In this document: one piece after another, positions 8,906 to 26,432 of the stretch
How the letters are laid out: each line of letters begins with the position of its first letter
Numbering within the stretch: position 1 is the first letter of the stretch
Origin: Acorus gramineus
Taxonomy: Eukaryota; Streptophyta; Magnoliopsida; Acorales; Acoraceae
DNA: 64,000 bases
Assembly: GCA_030737835.1 (NCBI GenBank)
Contig: CM060855.1
Location: 1-64,000 of the forward strand
Direction of reading: 5' to 3'
Translations under genes and position numbers: made by a program
Notes under the pieces: generated by a model
Told to the model about the DNA's origin: nothing
Seen by the model: only the letters and a program-made list of their open reading frames with translations
Databases searched by the model: none

Positions 8906-11895
8906 ATGTTTTAAAACAAGATCTCACCCATGCCATCCAATTTAACTGTCACCCATTTTGAATTTCAATTCAGTTTATCTTCAAAATCTAATGATATAAA
9001 AAAAAAAGGAATTATAATGTTATGTACATGCACATATGAATGGCATTGGACAGAAAGACAAGAAAAAGAACAACCTCTAACATGTGGGTGTTTTGATCTA
9101 CACAAAAATTTCAGGGAATATAAAAAATAAAAGAGTTGAAATAAATACTTGGAATTAGTATTTCTTTGAGCTGATTTGGCAAGGGATAAATGGTGGGATA
9201 ATGGGTAAATATGGAGATACGTGAGTTAGAGAAGAGCTTATCCCCGTTTGGTATAAAAAATAACTGAGATAAACTGCAGACAGCTGTCCCAATCTTAAAA
9301 TGAAAACGGGGATATTTTGTTCTACCTAAAGGCTGATATAGCATTTATCATCACTTTTTTATCACAATTTTGACAAATATAAATATGAACAAAATTGATA
9401 GATTTTTTATCCCTTAAAATTAAAACAACCTATCATCAAAACCTTAATTCCTTGCCAAACTAGCCCTAATTAATTATTCATTAACCAATTTTAATCGTAA
9501 AATTACCATACCCATTGATTCCCATCTACCAGTAACATTTCCCTCACACAACCACCCCCTTCACTCCTCAAGCAAGATGATTTGTACTAGTCGCCATTGT
9601 TGAAGATCCCATTCACATCAAAAACTGCACTCACGATACCCATTCAAAAATGGCAATTGCAATCGCAATGCGATCCTCACGGTTTAACCACTATCGGTTA
9701 ACAAACATTTATTTGATAATGAATTCTCTTGAATTCTCACACGAATGCATCACCTAGATGCAAAGCAATTAACTATGTTCTTTGTGAATTAATGATTGGG
9801 TATGATTCTAATAATGAAACTTGGTTAATGATGAAACGTGCAAATATAATAGGTAAAAATTGAATAAAAAAGAAATGGAACAATACGAGTTAATCGACAA
9901 ATGACAATGCCAGGTTATTATTTGTACATGGAAATAATACTACTTAGCAAATATTTAAAACATGCAACTTATTAGCTATTAATTGAGTAAATTATTAATG
10001 AAATATATGAATTGTCAATGAATTCTTAAAAAAATTCATATGCTATTAAATATCTTTATTTCTAAACTTCACCAACTCACTTTCATCTCAGGGCCCAGCG
10101 CTCTGAGCCCACGATATGGACTACTGTTGGGGCTCCTACAAATGTGTTTGCTTGAGTCTATGGGAATGTTATGATGGTCTATCATATTTTAAATCTGATC
10201 AGTGTTCTTATGAGTCATCAATGAGGGATTAAAATGTGGATAAAATTGTGACAAGAGACTATAGGGATTGACAAGAATTGATGTAATTTGGCACTTACTT
10301 TAGTCCTGATAATGATCATGATCAGGACTAAAGCAAATCATGACGGGTGAGGACTCTTGTTACACTCATTACTTGATTTTTACTGTTCCAAATGCAGTCC
10401 ATTATATTGGGAATATTTTATATATTTTATGAAATGATATCATTCAATTCATTATAGTACATACTTTACTTTTTATAAAAGTATATATTTCATTATATGT
10501 TGTATATTATTTGAAAAAAAAAAACAGATGCGATCTATGATTTGGACTTAAAATAAGTTGTATTTAACATTTTTCTTGTTTTAAAATAAGATTTGGCTCA
10601 TGCCGTCCGATTTAGCATTCACTTGTTTTGAATTTCAATTCAATTTATCTTCAAAATTTGATGATGTAAAAAAGGAATTTAAATGTTACGGACATGCACA
10701 TATGAATGACATCGGGCAAAAATATTGGAATTAGAATTTCCTTGAACTAGTTTGATAAGGAGATAAATGATGGGATAATAAATAATTATGGAAATATGTG
10801 AGTCAGGATGACAGCTTAACCTTGTTTAGTATAAAAAAATAATCAAGATAAACTACGGAGAAAATTGTGATATTTTGTTCAATCTAAAAGTTGAGATGGC
10901 TTTTGTCTCTCCTTTTTATTTCAATTTTGATAAATGTAAATGTGAATAAGATTGATGGATTTTTTTATCTCATAAAATTAAAATAACTTATCATTAAAAC
11001 CTTAACTATTTGCCAAACTAATTATATAGTCGTTAACCGATTTTAATCATAAAATTAACATACCCCCATTGATTCCTCCCTACCATCAGCATTTCCCTCA
11101 CACAACCACCCCCTTCACTCCTCAAGCAAGATCATTTTAACCCTGTCACCATTCATGATACCCATCAAAATGGCAGTCACATCAAAATCTATACTAATGA
11201 TACCCATTCGAAAATGGCAGTCACAATCGCAATGTGATCCTCATAGTTTAACCACTGTCGATTAGCGAACACTGGTTCGATAATGAATTCTCTTGGATTC
11301 CCACACGAATGCATCACCCAGATGCGAGGCAATTAACTATGTTTTTTTGCAAATTAATGATGGGATATGATCCTAATAACGGGTCATACATAGGCCTGTC
11401 ACAAATAGGCCTAGTTAATTATGAAACGTGCAATTATGACAAGTAAAAATTGAATCAAAAGGAAGTGAATCAATACGAGTTAATCAAGGAATGGCAATGC
11501 TAGGTTATTATTTGCACATGGGAATAATACTATTTAGCAAATATTTAAAACATGCAACTTATTAGCTATTAATTGAGTAAATTATTAATGAAATATATGA
11601 ATTGTCAATGAATTCTTAAAAAATTCATATGCAATTAAATATCTTAATTTCTAAACTTCACCAACTCACTTTCATCTCGGAGGCCCCAACGCTCTAGCAC
11701 ACGATATGGATTGTTGTTGGGGCTCCTACAAATGTGCTTGCTTGAGTCTCTAGGAATGTTATGATGGTCTATCATATTTTAGATCCGATTAGTGTTCTTC
11801 TGAGTTATCAATGAGGGATTAAGATACGGATAAAATTGTGACAAGAGACCGTAGGGATTGCCAAGCATTGATGTAATTTGGCACTTACTGAAAAG
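8680..11895. repeat. 1.6-kb segmental tandem duplication, no gene
   Basis: Copy 1 (about 8680-10305) and copy 2 (about 10352-11895) are diverged direct repeats. For example TTTGGCACTTACT near 10289 recurs near 11879, 1590 bases later, and the 200 bases before it are close to identical. Copy 1 is some 90 bases longer. Each starts with a MITE-like segment (8679-8905 and 10352-10575). No ORF of note is conserved in both. Neither copy shows LTR ends or a primer-binding site. Confidence 0.75.
10352..10575. mobile_element. MITE, GTTACAC...TTAACATTTTTC family, copy 2
   Basis: This is the counterpart of 8679-8905 in the second half of the segmental duplication. It begins GACTCTTGTTACACTC and ends TTTAACATTTTTC. 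It has no coding capacity. Confidence 0.5.
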
Positions 11896-14268
11896 AGATA
11901 GAGCTTGTCATGCCTTGGCCAAGCATGATTATCATTAATAAATCTATTCCATTGGTTATAAAAGCTTAATCTCATGTTGTTAATGAACATACAACTGTCC
12001 AAATTTCATGAAATTGCAAAGGAAACTACGGGGCTGTTTGGTTCAACTTTGATTCAGTACTTATACAACTTAAAGTTGAAAATCTGAAAAAATTCTGTTT
12101 GGTTGGGTGTCAAATAAGCTCATGTGGGTTTCCTCGTTCAGACATTTTTCCCAGCAATTTTTCAGCCCACGAAAGTCACTTAATACGATTCGGATTCAGT
12201 GTTCAGCGATTCGTCCCCGAAGTGAAAATACCAAAGTGCCCCTGACTTCTAATGGTATTTACATAGGGTATATAAACCCTCTTTCAACCAAACATTCTCC
12301 TCTCTCTCTCCTCACTTTGGCTGCGCCAATTTCACCATTTTCGAACTTTAAAAACGAACGACTTCTTCCTCTTCGAGCAGAGCCAGTTCTACCCTTTTTC
12401 AACCCTATAATGGAAGAGTGTCACTTTGATGTTCTTCTGAACTGATCCAGGCTCAGTCCGATCTGCTACATCCTCACGAAACACGAGCAGACTTTACGAT
12501 CTCCCTCTCACCGTCTCCAATGAATCTGCCGATTCTCTCCGATCTGCTTCCTCCTCTTCGGATCGCCTCCCCAGCCAAAGATCTAGGTAAAACCCACCAC
12601 ATCTCCTTGGATCATGTACTGATCCATAGATTTCGATGAAAAACTGTTTAGGTTTTCATAGCGTATGAATGTATATATGTTGCATCAGGTGAAATGTGTG
12701 GTTTTTTTTTTCTGTGGATCGATCAGATGTGAAAGTTGGTGATTCATAGGTTTTTCAGTGCAAAACCTCATTTGTTCAAGTGGGATTGTCTTTGATTCTG
12801 ATTTTATTGATTGGAGTTGCATGGATTTGTGGTACCATATCTCTCTTTCCTGGTCCCATGGGGATCAATCTGTTGCTTTTTCTTTGAAAAATAAAATATT
12901 GTTTCTTGATCTTTGAAGAAGTTAATTCGGGGTTAGGAATTCCAAGATCATATGCAAATGAATGTAGAACATGAATATCATTGCTGATATCAGCTGTTTT
13001 TTTCATATCATCTATCGATTATTGTTATAAAAGCAGCTTAGCACTATCCACAAAATGATGCAATTAAATTTGACCAATTCATAATTTGTGAGTTCTGAAA
13101 AATATTTTCATGCATGGATGGCTCTGACATGCACTTCCTGAAGGGTTTAACTTGCATTTCAGTTTGTGAAAAAATATACCGTTTTTAAATTAGAGACCTG
13201 TTTGGAATGTTACCAGTTATGGGTGATTTTTCCAGATGGTCCTGTCTTTCTAAGGACATTTTCACCACTTAAGAGAAGCCAAATTGTATCCACAATGAGG
13301 TTATATACTATGTCTAATTATACCATTTTATAGGATGCCTCAAAATGCTATTATTTTAATCTTCAAGGGACAAACTAATAAGTTTATGTGAGTCTCATTG
13401 TTAAGCTTGATATTGTTAAATTGGCTGCATTCCATGGGGGTTTAGACATTCCCTGAGACTGAATATGAACTCTCTGCCACTTCATAAGCATTACCAAAGG
13501 CTATATGTTGTTATTCAAATGACTTGTAAAATCTTTAGTAGTTAGACATGCCTTGTAGCATTGGGGACTGACAAAAGTTAAGGTATATAAATCATGCTAA
13601 TAAAAGTACATTTTGTGTCTTTATCAAGTGTTTGCTAAGGAATTTTTTTTTTGAACATCAAAGTTATGGATGAGTTTTTATCAAAATAATTCAATATCAG
13701 TCCTAAGTAGGGGAGAATGGGATGGCCTTATAGTGGAGTCATGTAATAGTTGGGTATGAGTCTTTGTCAAAGTTATTCAACATCAAAGCTATTCTGTTAG
13801 AACCCGGGTGCTTGGTCCTTCATGATGGGACTTCATTTTTTCCCACACAAGTGGGATCTGTCCCCACTGACTATTTTTGGTATCCCTAGTGCTATCAGTT
13901 CTCCCTTTTAGATATCAGCTAAAAAAAAACCCCTTATATCATACTTGCATCATGGTCTACTGGATATACATGTGTTTTTTGAATTTGATATATTAAAAGT
14001 TACCTGTCCTTGTTGAACATGTGTTAGAACAATTCAAAATCTCCCCCAATATCAAGAAAAGAAAAAAACTAGGGAATTATTATTTGATTGATTCGATTGA
14101 CTTGATCATGTGAGACAATGGATTTAAGTTAATGGAATCAAGTAACTTAAATCCCTGTAATTATTTGTATCTTTTAGGTAATGGATATTTTCTTTAAGTG
14201 ATATTTGATTGATTTGATTGAACCACATGATTAAGTAACTTAAATCCCTATAATTATTTGAATTACAG

Positions 14269-14840
14269 GCTTATCCCGATGCGAAACAGTTTCGATACAA
14301 ACCTCTTCCTCATGCCGATGAGATGGAACAATTGTTTAGGGGGGTCACGGCCACGGGGGATCATAGATTTGGTTCTGCTGATGATGACCACCTTCTTTAT
14401 GATCACGATCCACTTCCCATAACCCAACACCGAATACGGAAACTCCAAGTCCACCACTGGGTCCTGAAGGTTCGGGTGAACCCGACCCTGTCCAAACCGA
14501 GTCAAACTATGAGGAACGCATGTCGGACGTTCGACGCAAATGTCCGTGTCCCAGTAGACGTAGGAGGAACAGTGAGGATACCATTGTGGAGAAGATTGAT
14601 GGGGTGCTAGATAAGATTGTCAATTCCGCCAGTAGTCAAGCACCAATTCCGACAAATATAGTACCCACAGTTGATGAATGTTATGCATCCCTCCGTGAGA
14701 CCCCTTCGTTTGTGCCCGGTACCTCCCTCTACATAAACGCTCTGAGATTCATCAACATTCCTGAGAATCGACGACTTTGGATGCTGGAGCTTGATCCAAC
14801 TTCAAGGGCTATGTTGGTGGAGGCTCATTTCAGTGGCTAG
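14269..14840 (+). pseudogene. PIF/Harbinger ORF1 (Myb/SANT-like accessory protein), C-terminal exon, frameshifted
   Basis: After an acceptor TTACAG (14263-14268) the frame reads AYPDAKQFRYKPLPHADEM, the region just after the trihelix in plant Myb/SANT-like proteins. Further on, in a second frame (from about 14420 to the stop at 14840), come an Arg-rich stretch (RRKCPCPSRRRR), a possible nuclear signal, and a C-terminal segment with SLYINALRFINIPENRR. This matches the usual ending of these proteins. The two frames are separated by a frameshift near 14420. The N-terminal DNA-binding exon is not found upstream, so the gene is truncated. In this superfamily ORF1 partners the transposase. Confidence 0.7.
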
Positions 14841-15100
14841 AGTATCCGGTGCCTTGTTCAGTGATGTTTGATGTGATTTGAACTATGTCCTAAGTATTTA
14901 TGTTTGTTTATGTTTTATGAACAGTATCCTATGTTTGCTTGTTAAGAATTTAATAGGACTCCACTATTATGTATTGATACTGCTATGGATCCTTCAGCAT
15001 GGATTGTTCGCTGTGATTTGAACTTGTTAGGTATATGTATTATGAATGTGGATGCTGATGTTAGGTTGGTTTATGTGTGGGCTGCATGTGGTTGGGTTTG

Positions 15101-15295
15101 GTATTATGAATGATGATGTGTTAGGGACTATGAATGATGATGTGTTTGGTATTAGGAATGATGATGTGTTAGGGACTATGAATGATGATGTGTTTGGTAT
15201 TATGAATGATGATGTGTTATGGATTATGAATGATGATGTGTTTGGTATTATGAATGATGTTGTGTTAGGGATTATGAATGATGATGTGTTGGTGT
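15101..15295 (+). repeat. 24-bp minisatellite, about 8 units, open in one frame
   Basis: Units of the type (A)TGAATGATGATGTGTT(A/T)GG(G/T)A repeat about eight times with few differences. Because 24 is a multiple of three, one plus-strand frame stays open across the array. That frame encodes an octapeptide of the type MNDDVFGI, continuous with the transposase reading frame starting at 15385. It lies between ORF1 and the transposase. Confidence 0.85.
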
Positions 15296-15384
15296 TCATG
15301 TGTCTGTTTGTGTTTGCTAATGTAGCAACTATTATGCTACGTAATGATTATGTTTATGGATTGCATTTTTCAATATTAATAGGA

Positions 15385-16624
15385 ATGTGGACTCCACAGA
15401 ATATCCTCATGTTCCTCCTCTTTGTGTATTACATACATCACAAGTACAACCGACATAGAGTGCAAAGAGTAGTGTATGACGGGGTTCTAAGTGGTCGTGA
15501 TTATATTAATGGAATATTGAGTAGCCACGAACTCCCATGTCAAGAATTATTTCGCATGGATCAACATGTGTTCATGCGATTGGCGGATTTTTTCCGGAAG
15601 GAAGGTTGGTTGGAGGACACAAGGAATATGATCATTGAAGAACAATTAGCTATATTCCTCACAATTGTTGGACACAATACAACAAATAGATATTGCCAGG
15701 ACCGATTCTAACACTCTGGGGAAACCATATCCAGACAGTTTAGGGCTGTTCTTTCAGCATGCTTGAAATTAAGCAAATTGGTCATCCATCCACCTGATTT
15801 CTCAAGGACACCCAACCAAATATTAAATAGTCATCGATTGTTTCTTGCGTTTAAGGTAACTAAAATTTCGTTCATGAATGTAGTAGAATTATATCTCCTT
15901 AACAAGATTGTTTAATGCCATATGGGTTTTCAAACATTTACATATAGGATTGCGTTGGGGCAATAGATGGAACCCTTGTCCACGCGATCATAGAGACAGA
16001 GAATCAAGTTCCATTTTGAGGGCGCAAAGGGGATTGCATGCAGAATGTTCTTGCTATCTGCTCCTTCGTCATGTAGCTCACCTATGTTGAGGCCGGTTGG
16101 GAAGGAACGGCACACGATTCTCGTATCCTGTCAGAATGCATCCGAGACCCATCAAGGAAGTTTCCTTTGCCACCTTTGGAAAAATATTATCTAGCAGATG
16201 CAGGGTACAGTAACAATAGGGGATTCCTCACACCATATCGGAACGTGAGGTACTGGTTGGGTGATTATAGGGGAGGCATAAGACCTCAAAATAGGGAGGA
16301 GCTATTCAATTATTATCACTCCTCATTGTGCAATGTCATAAAACGAACTTTTGAAGTGTGGAAAGCGCGATTCCCCATACTGAGAAAGATGGCATCTTAT
16401 TCTTTTGACATGCAGGTACGGATCGTCATTGCGACAATGGCTATCCATAACTACTTCGAAGGGAAAATCATGCTGATAACCTCTTTCATGGTTTTGAAAA
16501 CATGAACACTGATGAAGACCGTACCACTGAAACATTATATGCCCAAGTGCAATCGGAGAGAGATCAATTAAAAATGAATAGAACCCGAGATCAGATAGCC
16601 GATATGCTAATGGCTAGGCGCTAG
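15385..16624 (+). pseudogene. PIF/Harbinger DDE transposase, decayed (2 exons)
   Basis: Exon 1 is 15385-15855, the intron 15856-15947 (GT-AG), and exon 2 runs from 15948. It matches plant ALP1-like/Harbinger transposases: an N-terminal helical part (GRDYINGILSS), DCVGAIDGT with the first catalytic Asp, GTAHDSRIL with the conserved HD, then YYLADAGYSN and CNVIKRTFEVWKARFPIL. In functional relatives the last motif is NVIERTFGVWK; here the catalytic Glu is Lys. There is an in-frame TAA at 15709 (normally Gln in this family's ..RFQHSGET), a TAG near 16075 where Gln is usual, and a 1-base frameshift near 16460, after which the usual tail ending DQIADMLMARR is in another frame. It is a dead transposase that cannot move the element by itself. 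Confidence 0.88.
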
Positions 16625-16720
16625 GGATGTGACTTTTTTTTTTGTCTACTCCATGCATCCCCCTTGTAATAATATGAATATTATAACAGTCTTGTATAAT
16701 TATGTAATATTTTTGATAGC

Positions 16721-17019
16721 ATGAAGACCAAGGATTCAGAGATTCAGTGCGCCTGTGGATGTGGGCCGATGGTCCTCTTGATGGCGAGGACTTCAAAGAA
16801 CTATGGTCGATGGTTTTTGAGGTGCCCAACTAGAGTGGTAAGTCATAGACAGTGTAAACCATGATTTGGTGCTATTTCTATATCCATATAAACTGTGTAA
16901 TGATATCATTTGATGTATTTTGTTGTCATTCATGTAATCAGGAACACCCACAATGCTTCATGTGGGTTGATGAATTGCGTCGGGCGCAAGGACCCGATTA
17001 TTTTCCAGTGCCAGTTTAG
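16721..17019 (+). CDS. GRF-type zinc-finger small protein inside the PIF/Harbinger element
   Basis: Two exons, 16721-16837 and 16942-17019, are joined across a GTAAGT...AATCAG intron in phase 0 to give 64 aa. The protein has CACGCG near residues 10-15, then KNYGRWFLRCP (26-36), then HPQCFMWVDEL (41-51). This is the C-x-C...G-R-x-F-x-x-C...C-x-F-x-W layout of GRF zinc fingers (the domain of NEIL3, TOP3A and APE2, and of many small plant proteins). There is no stop or frameshift. It lies about 100 bases after the transposase, same strand, well inside the terminal repeats. A role in binding single-stranded DNA is known for some GRF domains; any role in transposition here is inference. It could also be a captured host exon pair. 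Confidence 0.75.
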
Positions 17020-18190
17020 AAGAAGGTGGAGAAGGCCGCCGCAGTTGCACGGCCCACATGGTTACTCATCTTTGGATGCTGCTCATGCAAATGTATTATA
17101 TTGATGGTGTTTGTAATATTTTTTTGCTTCTACTCCTAGCCATCAAATGACTATAGAAGTTGGATTATGAAACCAACACTGTAATGTAAATATTAACTGC
17201 TCAAAACTTTTTTTTTTATTTGAGAAGGATTGTAACATTCTCATGTATTTATCTATTGTAGCATGAAAATATATGCAGCTCTAGTACTATGTTTGTGTAT
17301 ATGGTCTTATGTTTGATGATCTACAGATTTTTTTTATATCATAAAAAATTATAATATTCTCTTGTATTTATCTTGTGTAGCATGACATGATGTGAAGCTT
17401 TACCACTATTAAGTGAAACTCTCCTCAAAATTTCAACAAGTATGTGATTACAATGACTTTTCAAATATGGTAAATATAGATTGCATATTTACTGCGTTAT
17501 AAAAATCACATAACAGCTGTGTTTTTATTTTTTAATATCTATGTAGGCTTGAATCGGGTTCTAACAAGTCTTCAAAGTGAAGTATCTCATAATTTATTAA
17601 ATAAGTATTATGAAAGTATCTTTTTTTAATAAATAGAAAAAATAAGCAAATAATCAAGTTTTCAACCAAACATCAAATTACATTCAGCACTTATTAAATG
17701 GACCAAAACACCCTTAGCATAAACTCAACTCTTCAGTACTGAACCAAACACACTTATTTTCATAAGTGCTTATAATTTCCGCTGAACCAAACACTTTTTT
17801 CTTCTGAACTGATTAAAATTTATCAGGACTTATTAAATCTGTACTTGTGAATCAGGACTTAAAGTAAGCTTTTCGCTGAAAAGGGCCCCTACATATGTCA
17901 AGCATGTTAAACATCAGATGCATCATCATATATACCTGTACATGGGCATTCTGCCTAACAGAAAGTGGGTCCTGTAACAGGAGTGTCACTCTCTTAATTC
18001 TTTTCAAAGTTAAATCGCTTTCCGGGGGTAGTATATGATCACATAAAACCAAGTAAAAGAGAGAATATTATTTGGATATTCAATTTTTGTATACTTGTTT
18101 CCAAAGATATATTCCTCATTTCTGTCGTGGACGTATTATATTACTAGTGTGTTACATCTAATATATCTAATCATAGGGAAAAAAGAAAAA

Positions 18191-18420
18191 GAAAAATGAT
18201 ACGATCATCCCCTTATATAGTCTCATTTAAAATTTGCACCCCCATTTTTTTAATAAATTATACATTTTCCATTGAAGTATATCATGTTATAAGAAATAAA
18301 ATATATAATGAGATACAACTTTTTTCTTTTGAAAAAATGAAAAAAATTGTTACTACATACATTATGATAGAACCTCATACACTATGATAACATAGTGTGT
18401 ATCAGCGCTCAATAAAAATT
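18191..18420. mobile_element. MITE with TGATAC termini, copy 1
   Basis: It starts GAAAAATGATACGATC and ends GTGTGTATCAGCGCTC, an imperfect terminal inverted repeat. Its right part carries the palindrome-like CACTATGATAACATAGTG. Related copies lie at 26626-26884 and 27228-27507. The DNA between the PIF/Harbinger end (17892) and this element, and from 18420 to 18620, shows no gene. Confidence 0.5.
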
Positions 18421-18619
18421 TAAAACATGTGAATTAATATTCATGGCATTTAACAATCTAAAAGATTAGTAAACTAAGGATGATAAAATTCAACTGGGAA
18501 AATGTTATATAGTTTCGAAAATACCCAACTTTTAGTCATGCATCTTTTGTTTGAGGTTATATGCATTTATGTAGGAATTCCTTAATTAACGCATAGATGC
18601 ATATGGTCACCAATTAAAT

Positions 18620-20577: not shown

Positions 20578-23500
20578 ATGAACGATTCGAAGGTGGAGAC
20601 GATATCGAGATTGGCCCAGTGGAAGATCGAGAGCTTCGGCCCTGGCACCTTCCGAAAGTCCGATTCTTTCAAGGTCGGCATTTGGAACTGGTGAGTTTTT
20701 CAATCCGACTTTTTTTGCTTTTTTTTCTCTGTGGGTTTTGATGGTGATAGACGATATTAACGTTTTTTTTTTTATCTTAAAAAGATATATATGGGACTTT
20801 CTTGTAAGAATCCATGTCGGAACAGATGAGTAAGTGATGAAGATTGCATTTGATCTAATAAAATTGTTTATTTTTTAGTGATGGTAATGTGAAATATGGG
20901 ACTTCGTTTTTTCATGGAAGGATTTATGATGGAATTGAAGAGAAAAAAATGTTAATCAATGATTCGTTCTAGGTTTCGTTTTTGTTGGTGATATTCGTAA
21001 CAATAAAAAAATTAGTTTTTTTTTTATGACTAAAAAAATGAGATACCTAGCGAAGAAAAGAAATGGCACTGGAGGGGTGAAAATCAGGTAGTCGGATCTG
21101 TCCACTCCCGCTCTCCTCCGGCCTGCTGGTTGTGGTTCTCACCGGTGAGCACTCCTTCTTGGGCGTCGAAGTCACAAGGAAGTGGGGAGACCCTCCAACG
21201 CAAGTCAGTAATGGTGGTCAAACTAGGATTTTAGGAAAAAGAATTTCACATACATCGATAGAGAAAATTAGCTCTCTATTTATAGTGCTTTTTAGTTGCC
21301 CTAGGATCAATGGTTGATCTCTCTTCCATTAGACAGATAGGAATAGATTCACGATTCTGGTGGATCCAATATATAGTTAGGGGATTTGATCAATTACATT
21401 GATCATCCTTGGTCGAAAATATATATTTTGTTGGGATTATAGAGATCAGTCAATGATGGTTTTGAATTCAGGATATTTTATTGTTATTTGGGAATCAGTT
21501 TTAATGATAACTCCAAATCAAACAAATATACTGGGGAGATTCAGGAAATCCATTATTGCCCCAATTTAACATTCATTGAGATATACTGACTTAGGATATT
21601 GTCGCCGCCGTATCCGAGCGGACTGATGGGCCGGGTTAGCGGGTCGCAGTCACCTGGGTCACGGACCCTCATAATCGGGTCATGGGCCACGGGGAATATG
21701 ATCCGTTTATAGGGGCACTAAAAATGGGCCCCACAGGTACACAACTTTGTTTTTAAGAATTATGATTGATTTTTTTTTTTTAAAAATGGGCCCCACAGGT
21801 ACACAACTTTGTTTTTAAGAATTATGATTGATTTTTTTTTTATTAAACGCATTCTGCGTGGACAGTCCATGTATTGACATCCATCGAGTTATATGACTCC
21901 TTAGGTGAGGTATATAGCTCGTTAATTTTTTTTTTTACATCTGTTAAAAATAGGTCTATTCAATTCGAAATGGAGTGATACATACTTTTGATCAAAGCAT
22001 ATACCTCTTTTTTTTTTTTTGATGAAATGATAGGCATGATCCGTGATTTTATTAAGACTGGTGCAAATGCCCAAAACGTACAAAAGAACTCATGGTTGAT
22101 GAGGTTTCTACCATTAGACGAATGCGAACTGTCCTTGGGTCTGTCCCTAATGTAATTCTTTTTTTTAAAAGGTTTTTGTCAGTCGAAAAGAACCGGTACA
22201 TGTACATCCGCCTCTACCCTGAGCCTTGTCGACTCTCAAAAGAACAACCTCCTATGGCAAGATTCATACTCCGGGTCTGTAATGTTGGTGGGAATCGCCG
22301 GCCCTACATTTCACCTGGTAAATATTTCTTCTTTCCATGACATGGTGTACTTTGCTTTTCTTTGAAGAGGATGTTATTGTTAGTTAGTTTTGAATTTCAA
22401 TGTTAGTAGCTTTGCTGTTAGTGTTCAATAATAATTGATTGATGAAATCCCTCAAATTGGTTTGTACGTTTGCATGTGTGTGTGTTAAATCCTGAATATA
22501 TCAGAGGCTTAGGATTATCATTATAGATATATATATGTGTGTGTGTTAAATTTCTTGTTTCTGGGAATGCAATGAATCCATCATTATTTATAATAGCATG
22601 GTCTCATTTAAGGGTGGTACACTCACAATTCAGAAGTGGTCCTTTTTTTTTTTGAAAAAGTTCAAGGACCTTGTAGCTGTAGGGAGAGTTACATTAAGTT
22701 TTTCAACAAGATTGCAAGCAAACTGCAAAGACAAAACTCATAAAGCTTTTTCATACTGGGATGAAATACATGGAACACACACAAGTTAACACTACTCAAA
22801 AGACTTCCATCTTAATCTCTATGAAGAGGATAACTTGAGGACACTGTTAATCAAATTGGAACTTTTTTTCTTCTCTTGTTCTCATATAGGATTGTAGAGC
22901 AATGTAGGCTCTATGCTACTTGACATGGCTAGAGAACTCAAGGGCATGAAGGGGCCCATTACCCCTCTTTAGTGCCACTCATGTCGGAAACTCATTCTTA
23001 AGAAACTAGTGTTTGAAGGAAACGGAGCTCTTTCATTAATGGGAGATCAATCCTGAATTGCTATTTAGTAACATAGGAGTTTATGAATTATGTTGAACTG
23101 AGTGGAATGAGATGATTCATCTTCAAGTTTAATTTTAAGAAGGCCTTGAACAAAAATAATTGGGAGTTAACACTACTCAAAAGACTACTCAAGTTAACAC
23201 TACTCAAAAGACTTCCATCTTAATCTCTATAAAGAGGATAACTTGAGGACACTGTTAATCAAATTGGAAATTTTTTTCTTCTCTCGTTCTCATATAGGAT
23301 TGTAGAGAAATGTAGGCTCTATGCTACTTGACATGGCCAGAGAACTCAAGGGCATGAAGGGGCCAATTACCCCACTTTAGTGCCACTCATGTCGGAAACT
23401 CATTCTTAAGAAACTAGTGTTTGAAGGAAACGGAGCTCTTTCATTAATGGGAGATCAATCCTGAATTGCTATTTAGTAACATGGGAGTTTATGAATCATG

Positions 23501-26432
23501 TTGAATTGAGTGGAATGAGATGATTCATCTTCAAGTTTAATTTTTAAGGAAGCCTTGAACAAAAATAATTGGGAGTGCTTGATAGTTATCATGGGGAGCA
23601 CTGGGATTTTTGGAAAATGTATTTGATGCTTCCAAAAAATGTTTCTCAATGACTTGCTTCTCACTGTATGTTTTAAAAGTATAAATACTTACGTAAATAA
23701 CATCAAACCCTCTACATTAATAAGTATTTTCTATTAGGCCTGATATATTTTTCATGTCATCCTTTAACCCCATTGCTATATTTAGACTTCTTGGTGGTTA
23801 AATTGAATCTTTCTCCCTTTAGTTTTATTCAAATGTCCCTAGTAGAGTACTTTTTTGGAAATCAAATTACACTTATAAATATTTATCATAAGGTTCAAAT
23901 TTAATTTATCATAAGATCTACAACTTTGTTCTCATGGTTAATAACAATGCATCCCTTATAAAATTTATAATATTTATGAATAAATCCCCTGAATGTTTGG
24001 ATTCTACGTGCGACTGCACATATCAATGTTCGGCCTTAAGCACACATTAGTGCACACATGCACCACGTGTTGTCAATGTGCGGCACATGCGTTGCATATG
24101 CTAAAAAAAAATGCATGTGCGGTCATCTGCTGCACGCATTACCGCACATGTTGCAATGGTTGAAGACGGATGTACCCCCTTTTGAATGGTTGAAGCATGG
24201 CTCGAACCCTTCGAAGGGGGTTCGCCCTAGGCTTTAGTTGTTCAAATCCCATTCGGACAGTCCCAGCCTTCAGTTGTTCAAATCTCATTCTAATGTGGTT
24301 CGAACGCCTGAAGGCATGAATGAAAAACAATATCCATTCGAACTTCATTTGAATGGCGCACAATGTGCAGCCGCGTGCACTGTACATGCGTTTGCGTGTA
24401 CCTTATGCAGACTTGACCGTATATGTGGTCCGCACATTCATTTTGAACATTGGTTTCTGGTTCTGTTTGCTGTGTAGTTTTGTTTTGTTGTCTGTTCTGC
24501 TTTACTTTGATCTTGATCTGTTTCATCATGGTTTTGTTGGGTTCCTTTGTTTCTTCTTGCTGGGAAATCAGATATTAGAAGACTCATTTTCTATTTCTGA
24601 CCCTGCCTTCCATATAAAAAAAAACAGAGAGAATTTTGATGGAATTTATTTATTTGAGTGACATTGTTTTGTTGGGAATTGCAACATCAAGCTCTAGCAG
24701 TAATGAATCTATGAAAACATATTCAAATTCATGTCTCGAAATGAATTTAGCAGAACAAGGGAGTCATTTGGAACATTGCACACTCGAATAACAGGTAAAA
24801 ATACCATCCAGGTTAGCATGACAAAAGATACAGGAATTAAAAAGGGGTAGTAAACAAAAAAGAGTATTTGGTGATTATTGAATATCTAGTGCATGGTTTG
24901 GTATGATTATGAACCAATCCACATAATGATGGGCTGCTGTTATAACTGTTTAATCTATTCCAAATTTTCTTATATTATTTAGAAGATTTGGGCCTTATGA
25001 ATTGTTATATTGTTTCATGTTATTTATAAGTATAATCGGGATTGGCATGGAAGTCTCTTATTTCAGTAACTCCAACCTAGGAGACTATTCAATATTCGCT
25101 TGTCTTTATGTTGTATTACCACAATTTTTTTCAATACTTTAAAATGATTTTGTCTAACATTTGTGGGTATTTGAGGAGATGTGTGATTAATTTTACAGAT
25201 TGACATTAATAGGGACTTTTGTTTCTCTAAAAACAACAAATGTGCATTGGGGAATTATTTATTGTTCATGTTTCCTTTGTCCCCTATTTAGCTTTCTGCA
25301 TGAGTGCAGATACATGTAAATATTTGCATGTAACTTCCACGTTATCTATAGACATGATTCTAAGTCACAAATTTCCTAATAGAATGCATTTTTTCACATA
25401 TCCCTGTCTCTTGCTGCTCATTAGCACCTATGATTTCTAGCCTTTAAACTTTCTCAATTGCTCTTGATTATAAAGTTACACCTCAAAGTTAGAACACTTA
25501 TAACCTCTCTAATGTCTCGTTTTTTTCACTTAAATTGCTGCAATTAACAAACTAAATGATTTCATGACATGACTTTACATGTCAATGACCACCATTAGTG
25601 AACTGCTCCCTGCAGTTCATGAGAGATTACTTCGCAACAGCGATGACTTCGTTTGGCCGGTTGATTCTTCCTTTCATGGACGATTCACCATCGACGTAGA
25701 ATTTCTTGACCTCAAGATTTCCCAACTAAATGTAAGGATTTCCAAATATCTTTAATTATTTGGAAACAGAAACTCCTCCTCTTCTATCGAGTGACTAAAA
25801 CGTGCCAATGTTTCTGAGCTTTTCAGGGCGCAGAAGCCATTTCGATTTGGCCCAATGAAGGAACAATGCAATCTCTCGCAAGCCGAAGCACTCTCCGATG
25901 TCTCTCTCGGATGCTCGAAGAGGGCATTCACACAGACGTCACCATCAACACCTCCGATGGCACACTGAAGGCACACCGGGCTGTCCTCTCTGCGAGTTCT
26001 CCTGTTTTCGAGCGCATGTTCATTCACGACCTCAAGGAGAAAGAATCCTCGACGATCGAAATAGAGGATATGTCGCTTGAGTCATGCATGGCCCTCCTCA
26101 GCTACATATATGGGAACATTACACATGATGAGTTTTGGAAGCATCGACTCGCACTTCTTGGGGCTGCAAACAAGTACGATATTGTTGATCTCAAAGAGTG
26201 TTGCGAGGAGAGTCTCTTGGAGGACATCAATTCAAGCAATGTGTTAGAGAGGCTTCAGGAGGCTTGGTTGTACCAGCTGAACAATCTGAAGAAAGGATGC
26301 TTGACGTACCTCTTCGACTTCTTGAAGATATACGATGTGAGGGACGAAGTCGATGACTTCTTTAAACACGCCGATCGGGATCTGATGTTGGAGATGTTTC
26401 AAGAAGTTCTCACTGTTTGGAAGCCAGCTTGA
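20578..26432 (+). CDS. MATH-like/BTB/BACK protein, At1g21780 type (4 exons)
   Basis: Exons are 20578-20690, 22172-22317, 25616-25731 and 25827-26432, with GT-AG junctions and consistent phases. The product is 326 aa, the same length I recall for Arabidopsis At1g21780, with which it aligns end to end. It begins MNDSKVETISRLAQWKIE. Residues about 10-135 are the MATH-like N-terminal region. BTB/POZ runs about 161-258 (TDVTINTSDGTLKAHRAVLS) and a BACK-like segment follows. Such proteins dimerise through BTB and bridge substrates to CUL3 ubiquitin ligases; that role is inferred from the family. No stop or frameshift is present. Introns are 1481, 3298 and 95 nt; the first two are swollen by repeats. 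The start follows the CT-rich leader and is the first Met of the conserved N-terminus. Confidence 0.96.
21050..21760 (-). mobile_element. old LTR remnant in BTB intron 1 (fossil)
   Basis: Read on the minus strand, the stretch holds GACTTGCGTTGGAGGG, like the plant gypsy R/U5 motif seen at the start of the window, and a TATAAATAG box at 21274-21282 in the right order. It is more GC-rich than the surrounding intron. The ends are not clear and no target duplication was found. Likely a solo or truncated LTR, old, inserted antisense to the host gene. Confidence 0.5.
21720..21843. repeat. perfect 62-bp tandem duplication
   Basis: AAAAATGGGCCCCACAGG begins at 21720 and again at 21782, and the 62 bases are essentially identical apart from the T-run length. 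It lies in BTB intron 1 at the right edge of the LTR remnant, so it arose after that insertion and is recent. Confidence 0.85.
22008..22090 (-). mobile_element. possible LINE 3' end in BTB intron 1
   Basis: A T-run is followed by TGATGAAATGATAGGCATG and TTTATTAAGACTGG...GCCCAAAACG. This is the reverse of a poly(A)-tailed 3' end as left by plant LINEs. Only about 80 bases are present. A similar piece is at 4890-4980. It is weak, because no reverse-transcriptase coding is attached. Confidence 0.3.
22785..23580. repeat. 409-bp direct duplication in BTB intron 2
   Basis: Two near-identical copies, about 22785-23168 and 23194-23577, have a period of 409. Both run from TAACACTACTCAAAAGAC to AAAAATAATTGGGAG and differ at few positions. 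A partial third start (ACTACTCAAGTTAACAC) sits at the junction. It is non-coding and a recent unequal-exchange product. Confidence 0.88.
24000..24480. repeat. GC-richer inverted-repeat island in BTB intron 2
   Basis: The island has many short palindrome-like blocks such as GCACATGCG, TGCACACATGCAC and TTCGAACC on both sides of a centre near 24240. Its composition differs from the AT-rich intron. Reading frames here (up to about 100 codons) show no family signature. It could be a MITE, but ends and target duplication were not found. Confidence 0.35.

Follow-up and report, generated by a model that had tools for sequence, protein, structure and literature searches.

The window analysed here is the whole stretch of 64,000 nucleotides from positions 1 to 64,000 of contig CM060855.1 of Acorus gramineus (assembly GCA_030737835.1). 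As shown in Table 1, it contains a PIF/Harbinger element with remnants of ORF1 and of the transposase gene and, past the transposase, a small two-exon gene encoding a GRF zinc finger, which is here called ORF3. Loci fetched from the same assembly are designated by L numbers.

Table 1. Features of the PIF/Harbinger element in the window (positions of the window)
Feature	Position	Strand	Basis
Whole PIF/Harbinger element, 5,860 bp, ends GGGGC...GCCCC, TAC on either side	12030..17889	+	Ends read, sister copies compared
ORF1 remnant, second part only, Myb/SANT exon missing	14296..14825	+	tblastn with both parts of L048 ORF1
Transposase exon 1, interrupted by a single in-frame stop	15385..15855	+	Alignment to intact relative L048
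Transposase exon 2 (DDE_Tnp_4), interrupted by two in-frame stops and a deletion of 1 nt, with Lys for the catalytic Glu at 16341-16343	15948..16624	+	Alignment to L048
TTTTTGATAG, 3' splice acceptor-like, directly 5' of the ORF3 ATG	16710..16719	+	Alignment; role putative
GRF gene (ORF3) exon 1	16721..16837	+	Read in sequence, aligned with relatives
ORF3 intron, phase 0, GTAAGT...CAG	16838..16941	+	Alignment of relatives
ORF3 exon 2, up to the premature TAG at 17017-17019	16942..17019	+	Alignment
Former ORF3 C-terminal tail (linker, hydrophobic helix, old stop 17137-17139), severed by the TAG	17020..17139	+	Frame read past the TAG

The set of elements related to this copy displayed the hallmarks of PIF/Harbinger: a DDE_Tnp_4 transposase, a Myb/SANT-like ORF1, terminal inverted repeats and a TWA duplication. 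All three genes were open in L048, in which ORF1 matched PF12776 (Myb/SANT-like) at 73 bits and exon 2 of the transposase matched PF13359 at 79.7 bits, as expected of a DDE_Tnp_4-type transposase. Sister copies with both ends readable were flanked by TAA (L011 and L013) or TTA (L017); the flanks of the element in the window were TAC on both sides, not TWA. A minisatellite with 24/48-bp units occupied positions 15096-15290, inside the element just 5' of transposase exon 1, and two similar stretches (9442-10299 and 11000-11890, 83% alike) were located close to the left end of the element.

The initial annotation had described the transposase as decayed and ORF1 as truncated, and both descriptions were borne out. 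The transposase in the window carried three in-frame stops in total, a 1-nt deletion and a Lys where its relatives carry the catalytic Glu, and this Lys and the three stops were also present in L009. It was found among the best 150 of 410 DDE_Tnp_4 matches in the assembly (C9:15963-16451, 73.6 bits, two stops inside the match). The Myb exon of ORF1 was missing from the window copy, and the Myb part of L048 ORF1, used as a tblastn query, matched neither the window copy nor L009 nor L012.

To place ORF3 among its relatives, the assembly that contains the window (398.6 Mb, 137 contigs) was searched with the DNA of the GRF stretch. Of 128 candidates, at least 40 were scored as matches, counting the window itself. 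An alignment of 40 rows was built from the window and 39 loci fetched from the assembly. Copy numbers given throughout are lower bounds taken from the best-scoring candidates. The annotated structure of two exons joined at GTAAGT...CAG into a 64-aa product was verified in its coordinates and splice signals; the intron borders GT and AG were present in 37 of the 40 rows (the exceptions being L024, L025 and L044), and intron length across the rows was 102-105 nt. Some copies were open through the intron, with frames of about 150 aa; an intron serving as coding sequence was ruled out by this length range together with its spacer-like divergence. The assignment to the GRF family was also sound, as the spliced 64-aa product scored 32.4 bits against PF06839, the GRF zinc finger of Pfam, where the cut-off is 25.9.

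The statement that the ORF bears no damage, however, did not hold. At positions 17017-17019 an amino acid is encoded in 36 of the 40 rows (Gln in 34, His in one and Glu in one), and the window, L012, L023 and L033 carry TAG. Beyond the TAG of the window, the old frame continues for 39 more codons, into a hydrophobic tail. The TAG is a premature stop, and the window copy has lost its tail. CAG is a context that is often methylated in plants, and a C to T change in CAG would explain the recurrence of the same stop.

ORF3 was located downstream of the transposase, on the same strand and at most 5 kb away, at 51 of 150 listed DDE_Tnp_4 loci (the best 150 of 410 matches), while about 0.1 such pairs would be expected with independent places. 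One row per place was used in the pairing, which gave 106 ORF3 places from the best 150 of 338 matches. The distance from the DDE match to ORF3 was 267-537 bp in 50 of the 51 pairs. ORF3 followed the transposase in four transposase subfamilies (A, to which the window belongs, B, C and D). The proposal in the initial annotation that the ORF is a third gene of a PIF/Harbinger transposon, to be looked for past the transposase in related copies, was therefore confirmed in the genome of the window itself: sister copies carry the GRF ORF at the same place.

Among the 99 DDE loci without a listed partner, the neighbourhoods of nine (L050-L057 and L063) were read. L050, L053 and L056, all of subfamily D, contained a more diverged ORF3. 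At L057 the copy was rearranged, and ORF3 lay to the opposite side of a piece of transposase. For subfamily E (L051, L052 and L054), the 1.0-1.2 kb read past the transposase contained no GRF match by tblastn, indicating that some lineages can do without ORF3 or that it was acquired after they had branched off. No ORF3 match was present in the neighbourhood read at L055, where a B-type transposase is followed by other sequence, or at L063, which belongs to another lineage. In the transposase tree, A and B formed one group (support 92/94) and C and D another (83/91); the tree does not separate a loss of ORF3 in E from a split of E before ORF3 was gained.

Single complete copies of ORF3 from different subfamilies gave dN/dS values of 0.25 (A-B), 0.24 and 0.21 (C-D), 0.21 (A-C) and 0.18 (B-D), and the synonymous excess was significant (p 3e-5 for A-B, 1e-6 for C-D and 2e-9 for A-C). 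A pair within D, at low distance, gave 0.52. When decayed copies were included (16 A by 9 B of the 40 rows), the mean was 0.33 with a range of 0.23-0.44. In a second set, of 16 A by 2 B rows, dN/dS was 0.30 for ORF3 and 0.21 and 0.22 for the transposase exons, and the divergence of introns and spacer was 0.31-0.35. The comparison with the transposase suggested in the initial annotation thus gave a divided answer: between subfamilies the constraint on complete ORF3 copies is near that on the transposase, but this particular insertion shows no constraint (see below). A chance ORF was ruled out by copy number, position and dN/dS.

Judged from these sequence comparisons, ORF3 appears to be a long-maintained third gene of the PIF/Harbinger clade, under purifying selection in four subfamilies. 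The ORF in the window is most probably a decayed copy of this genuine third gene, selected while the elements were mobile and drifting after insertion.

The initial annotation had called the ORF selectively intact-looking and had suggested that the host may now use it. A 64-aa frame that is open and has splice signals would agree with selection for a host function. However, the premature TAG takes off the tail, and the density of damage was not below that of the transposase: in 16 subfamily-A copies, ORF3 had 12 disablements, stops and frameshifts taken together, in 5,184 nt and the transposase exons had 30 in 18,336 nt (Fisher p 0.35). This comparison used 16 of the 21 subfamily-A rows; L019, L024, L025, L027 and L028, with incomplete transposases, were left out. 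Of the six ORF3 frameshifts, four were single-base changes beside a T run close to the 3' end, with an effect confined to the last residues; without these four, ORF3 had 8 disablements in 5,184 nt, similar to the transposase. At the transposase's own rate, the chance of a 192-nt stretch staying undamaged is about 73%, so the openness of such a short ORF does not point to selection. Both flanks are common to the window, L009 (contig C54) and L012 (contig C91), which therefore represent one insertion, at a locus that is duplicated or unmerged. The region near 11000-18500 of the window is present three times in the assembly (at the start of C9, at the end of C54 and on C91), the copies being about 97-98% alike, as unmerged haplotypes or a recent duplication. 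Within ORF3, 6 nonsynonymous changes at 248 sites and 2 synonymous changes at 70 sites separated the window from L009 (p 0.56); the corresponding counts were 13 and 4 for L009 and L012 (p 0.54) and 14.5 and 4.5 for the window and L012 (p range of the three pairs 0.54-0.59). The p-values here and elsewhere assume independent sites, and copies related to each other do not count as separate events. Changes among the three copies were as expected without selection, with synonymous ones not in excess, and two of the three carry the TAG. A domesticated transposon gene would stay constrained at its fixed locus once mobility is lost; the window copy is dead, and no such constraint was found. Retention of the window ORF through host use is, accordingly, very improbable.

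Two other explanations concern the whole set of ORF3 genes. A host GRF gene could have been captured once by an ancestral element and carried passively ever since. Other sources of such a gene do exist, because frames with a GRF domain and a tail occur without an adjoining transposase frame. One example is L061 (G000:C6:22247500-22253000, minus strand), a 177-aa frame with a GRF domain and a hydrophobic tail that was found with equal score at at least nine listed places; no transposase frame of 100 aa or more was present in the 5.5 kb read there, and L061 is perhaps another repeat family carrying GRF. Passive cargo should drift, however, and values of 0.18-0.25 at synonymous distances of up to about 1.5 demand continued selection. 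ORF3 may have originated by capture, but passivity does not fit, and passive carriage is quite improbable. Alternatively, ORF3 could be an alternative 3' part of the transposase transcript, spliced at the acceptor-like site before its ATG. The site reads ATAGCATG in 31 of the 40 A and B rows, and the five loci read from C and D have either TTTTTGACAG or TTTTGGACAG, so that TTTTTGATAG or a close variant abuts the ATG in the loci read from four subfamilies, and from this pattern it may act as a splice acceptor. However, the ATG comes immediately after the site, and an intron in the 5' leader accounts for the site equally well. A joined transcript is unlikely, if slightly less so than passive carriage, and a separate, selected third gene remains the reading that we favor.

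The complete ORF3 protein encoded by the two exons has about 108 residues and consists of an N-terminal GRF ribbon, a short linker and a C-terminal hydrophobic helix. Scores against PF06839 were 32.4 bits for subfamily A (the window), 29.2 for B, 26.0 for C and 32.3 for D, all above the cut-off of 25.9. Cys10, Cys12 and Cys35 were invariant in ten aligned proteins. The fourth cysteine (Cys44) was kept in A and B. Those copies of C and D that were read have Ser or Ala instead, with a conserved His near that position; because the fourth Cys is lost, zinc binding is unsure in these copies. In A, B and C the Kyte-Doolittle maximum over 19 residues was 3.6, at residue 89 of 108, and the corresponding maximum for the 64-residue product of the window was 0.83. 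The hydrophobic tail was kept from A to D and is strongly conserved within the Harbinger set. With a single C-terminal hydrophobic helix and none earlier, the predicted layout is of the tail-anchored membrane protein type.

The best matches of the ORF3 family profile among solved proteins were the NEIL3 GRF structures 7jl5 and 7omk, and the match to the APE2-type chain 5u6z was weak (E 0.87). The GRF domain of NEIL3 is reported, in the accessible part of PMC9737245, to bind single-stranded DNA. ORF3 belongs to the same Pfam family as the GRF zinc fingers of NEIL3 and APE2. In contrast to these, ORF3 is a small protein that has the ribbon by itself, followed by a membrane-type tail. At the fourth Cys the spacing is shorter by two residues, and the copies read from C and D have lost this Cys. 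ORF3 may thus encode a membrane-anchored accessory protein. The tail would anchor the protein in the ER or nuclear-envelope membrane, and the ribbon, if it binds zinc, would face the cytosol or nucleoplasm and hold nucleic acid of the element or a partner protein. Such a protein could raise the success of the element, either by aiding transposition or by shielding element RNA or DNA from silencing.

GRF genes were also found beside transposases of another type. Outside the Harbinger set, the GRF locus L062 adjoins a transposase with Pfam MULE (PF10551, 77.9 bits) and a SWIM finger. The genome was searched with the L062 GRF protein and the L062 transposase, and places were paired at distances of at most 8 kb; 130 listed transposase matches formed 105 places and 146 listed GRF matches formed 141 places. 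A gene for GRF plus tail was nearby at 39 of the 105 listed MULE places, convergent with the transposase in 39 of 39, and about 0.15 pairs would be expected with independent places. Many of the 146 listed GRF matches span just the latter half of the protein, and copies related to each other do not count as separate events. The other 66 MULE places had no listed GRF partner. At one of the 39 listed places, the L062/L072 locus (G000:C9:18991000-19000000), inverted repeats of 132 nt enclose both the MULE transposase and the GRF gene; a target duplication around this element was looked for and none was evident.

Two MULE-side proteins exceeded the GRF cut-off, with 39.2 and 40.8 bits, and both have a hydrophobic end, with hydropathy maxima of 2.4 and 2.7. 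Two pairs of MULE-side GRF genes gave dN/dS values of 0.19 and 0.29. Of eight MULE-side loci fetched, five (L064, L065, L067, L069 and L071) had both borders of a phase 0 intron, placed four residues past the third Cys and abutting the five residues that end in the fourth, a position identical to that in ORF3. L070 was intronless, and no exon 1 was recognised in L066 and L068. The shared intron position and phase argue for common ancestry of the MULE-side and Harbinger GRF genes. A gene for a GRF ribbon with a membrane tail may therefore be a shared module of plant DNA transposons, derived from one ancestor and selected both in PIF/Harbinger, on the same strand as the transposase, and in MULE elements, convergent as mudrB is; we put this forward tentatively, as a proposal that stands a little below even chances. 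If it is true, there would be a membrane-based step in the life of cut-and-paste transposons, for example tethering to the nuclear envelope or protection from silencing.

PIF/Harbinger elements have been published as systems of two genes, ORF1 and the transposase, in the accessible parts of PMC2836001, PMC2213677 and PMC4482050. The elements described here share with Ping, Pong, PIF and Medicago MtPH the DDE_Tnp_4 transposase, the Myb-like ORF1, terminal inverted repeats and TAA/TTA duplications. They differ in the added gene for GRF plus tail past the transposase, with which subfamilies A-D exceed the two-gene description. Accessory genes on the strand opposite a Mutator-type transposase are known from mudrB of maize MuDR and from ORFR of the Abermu MULEs; in the available portion of PMC9168764, MURB and ORFR are reported without mutual similarity, and the function of ORFR as unclear, with Ka/Ks below 1. 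The GRF genes of the MULEs found here are likewise on the opposite strand and convergent, and they are likened to mudrB and ORFR by arrangement, not by sequence. The term GRF is absent from the accessible text of PMC9168764 and from that of a broad MULE survey (PMC6446971). No description of a GRF gene in a plant transposon was found among the open-access papers listed by the searches, and subscription journals or repeat databases may hold one.

A third gene selected across subfamilies suggests that a step is missing from the account of PIF/Harbinger as a two-protein system, either in its movement or in its survival of silencing. The similar gene found next to Mutator-like transposases is relevant to the role of the additional genes in Mutator elements. 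Plants have small GRF proteins, of the At4g04775 type, that consist of a GRF domain, a helical stretch and a C-terminal hydrophobic segment. ORF3 resembles them in this described layout, not in a sequence comparison, and some of the annotated small plant GRF genes may be transposon genes.

Two further repeats were noted. L027 and L028 (G000:C122) are near-identical copies of the element on the same strand of a single contig, separated by about 33 kb. Both lack the same short piece ahead of the hydrophobic tail, and the pair is probably a segmental duplication. Positions 22782-23576 of the window contain a tandem pair of near-identical 408-bp units.
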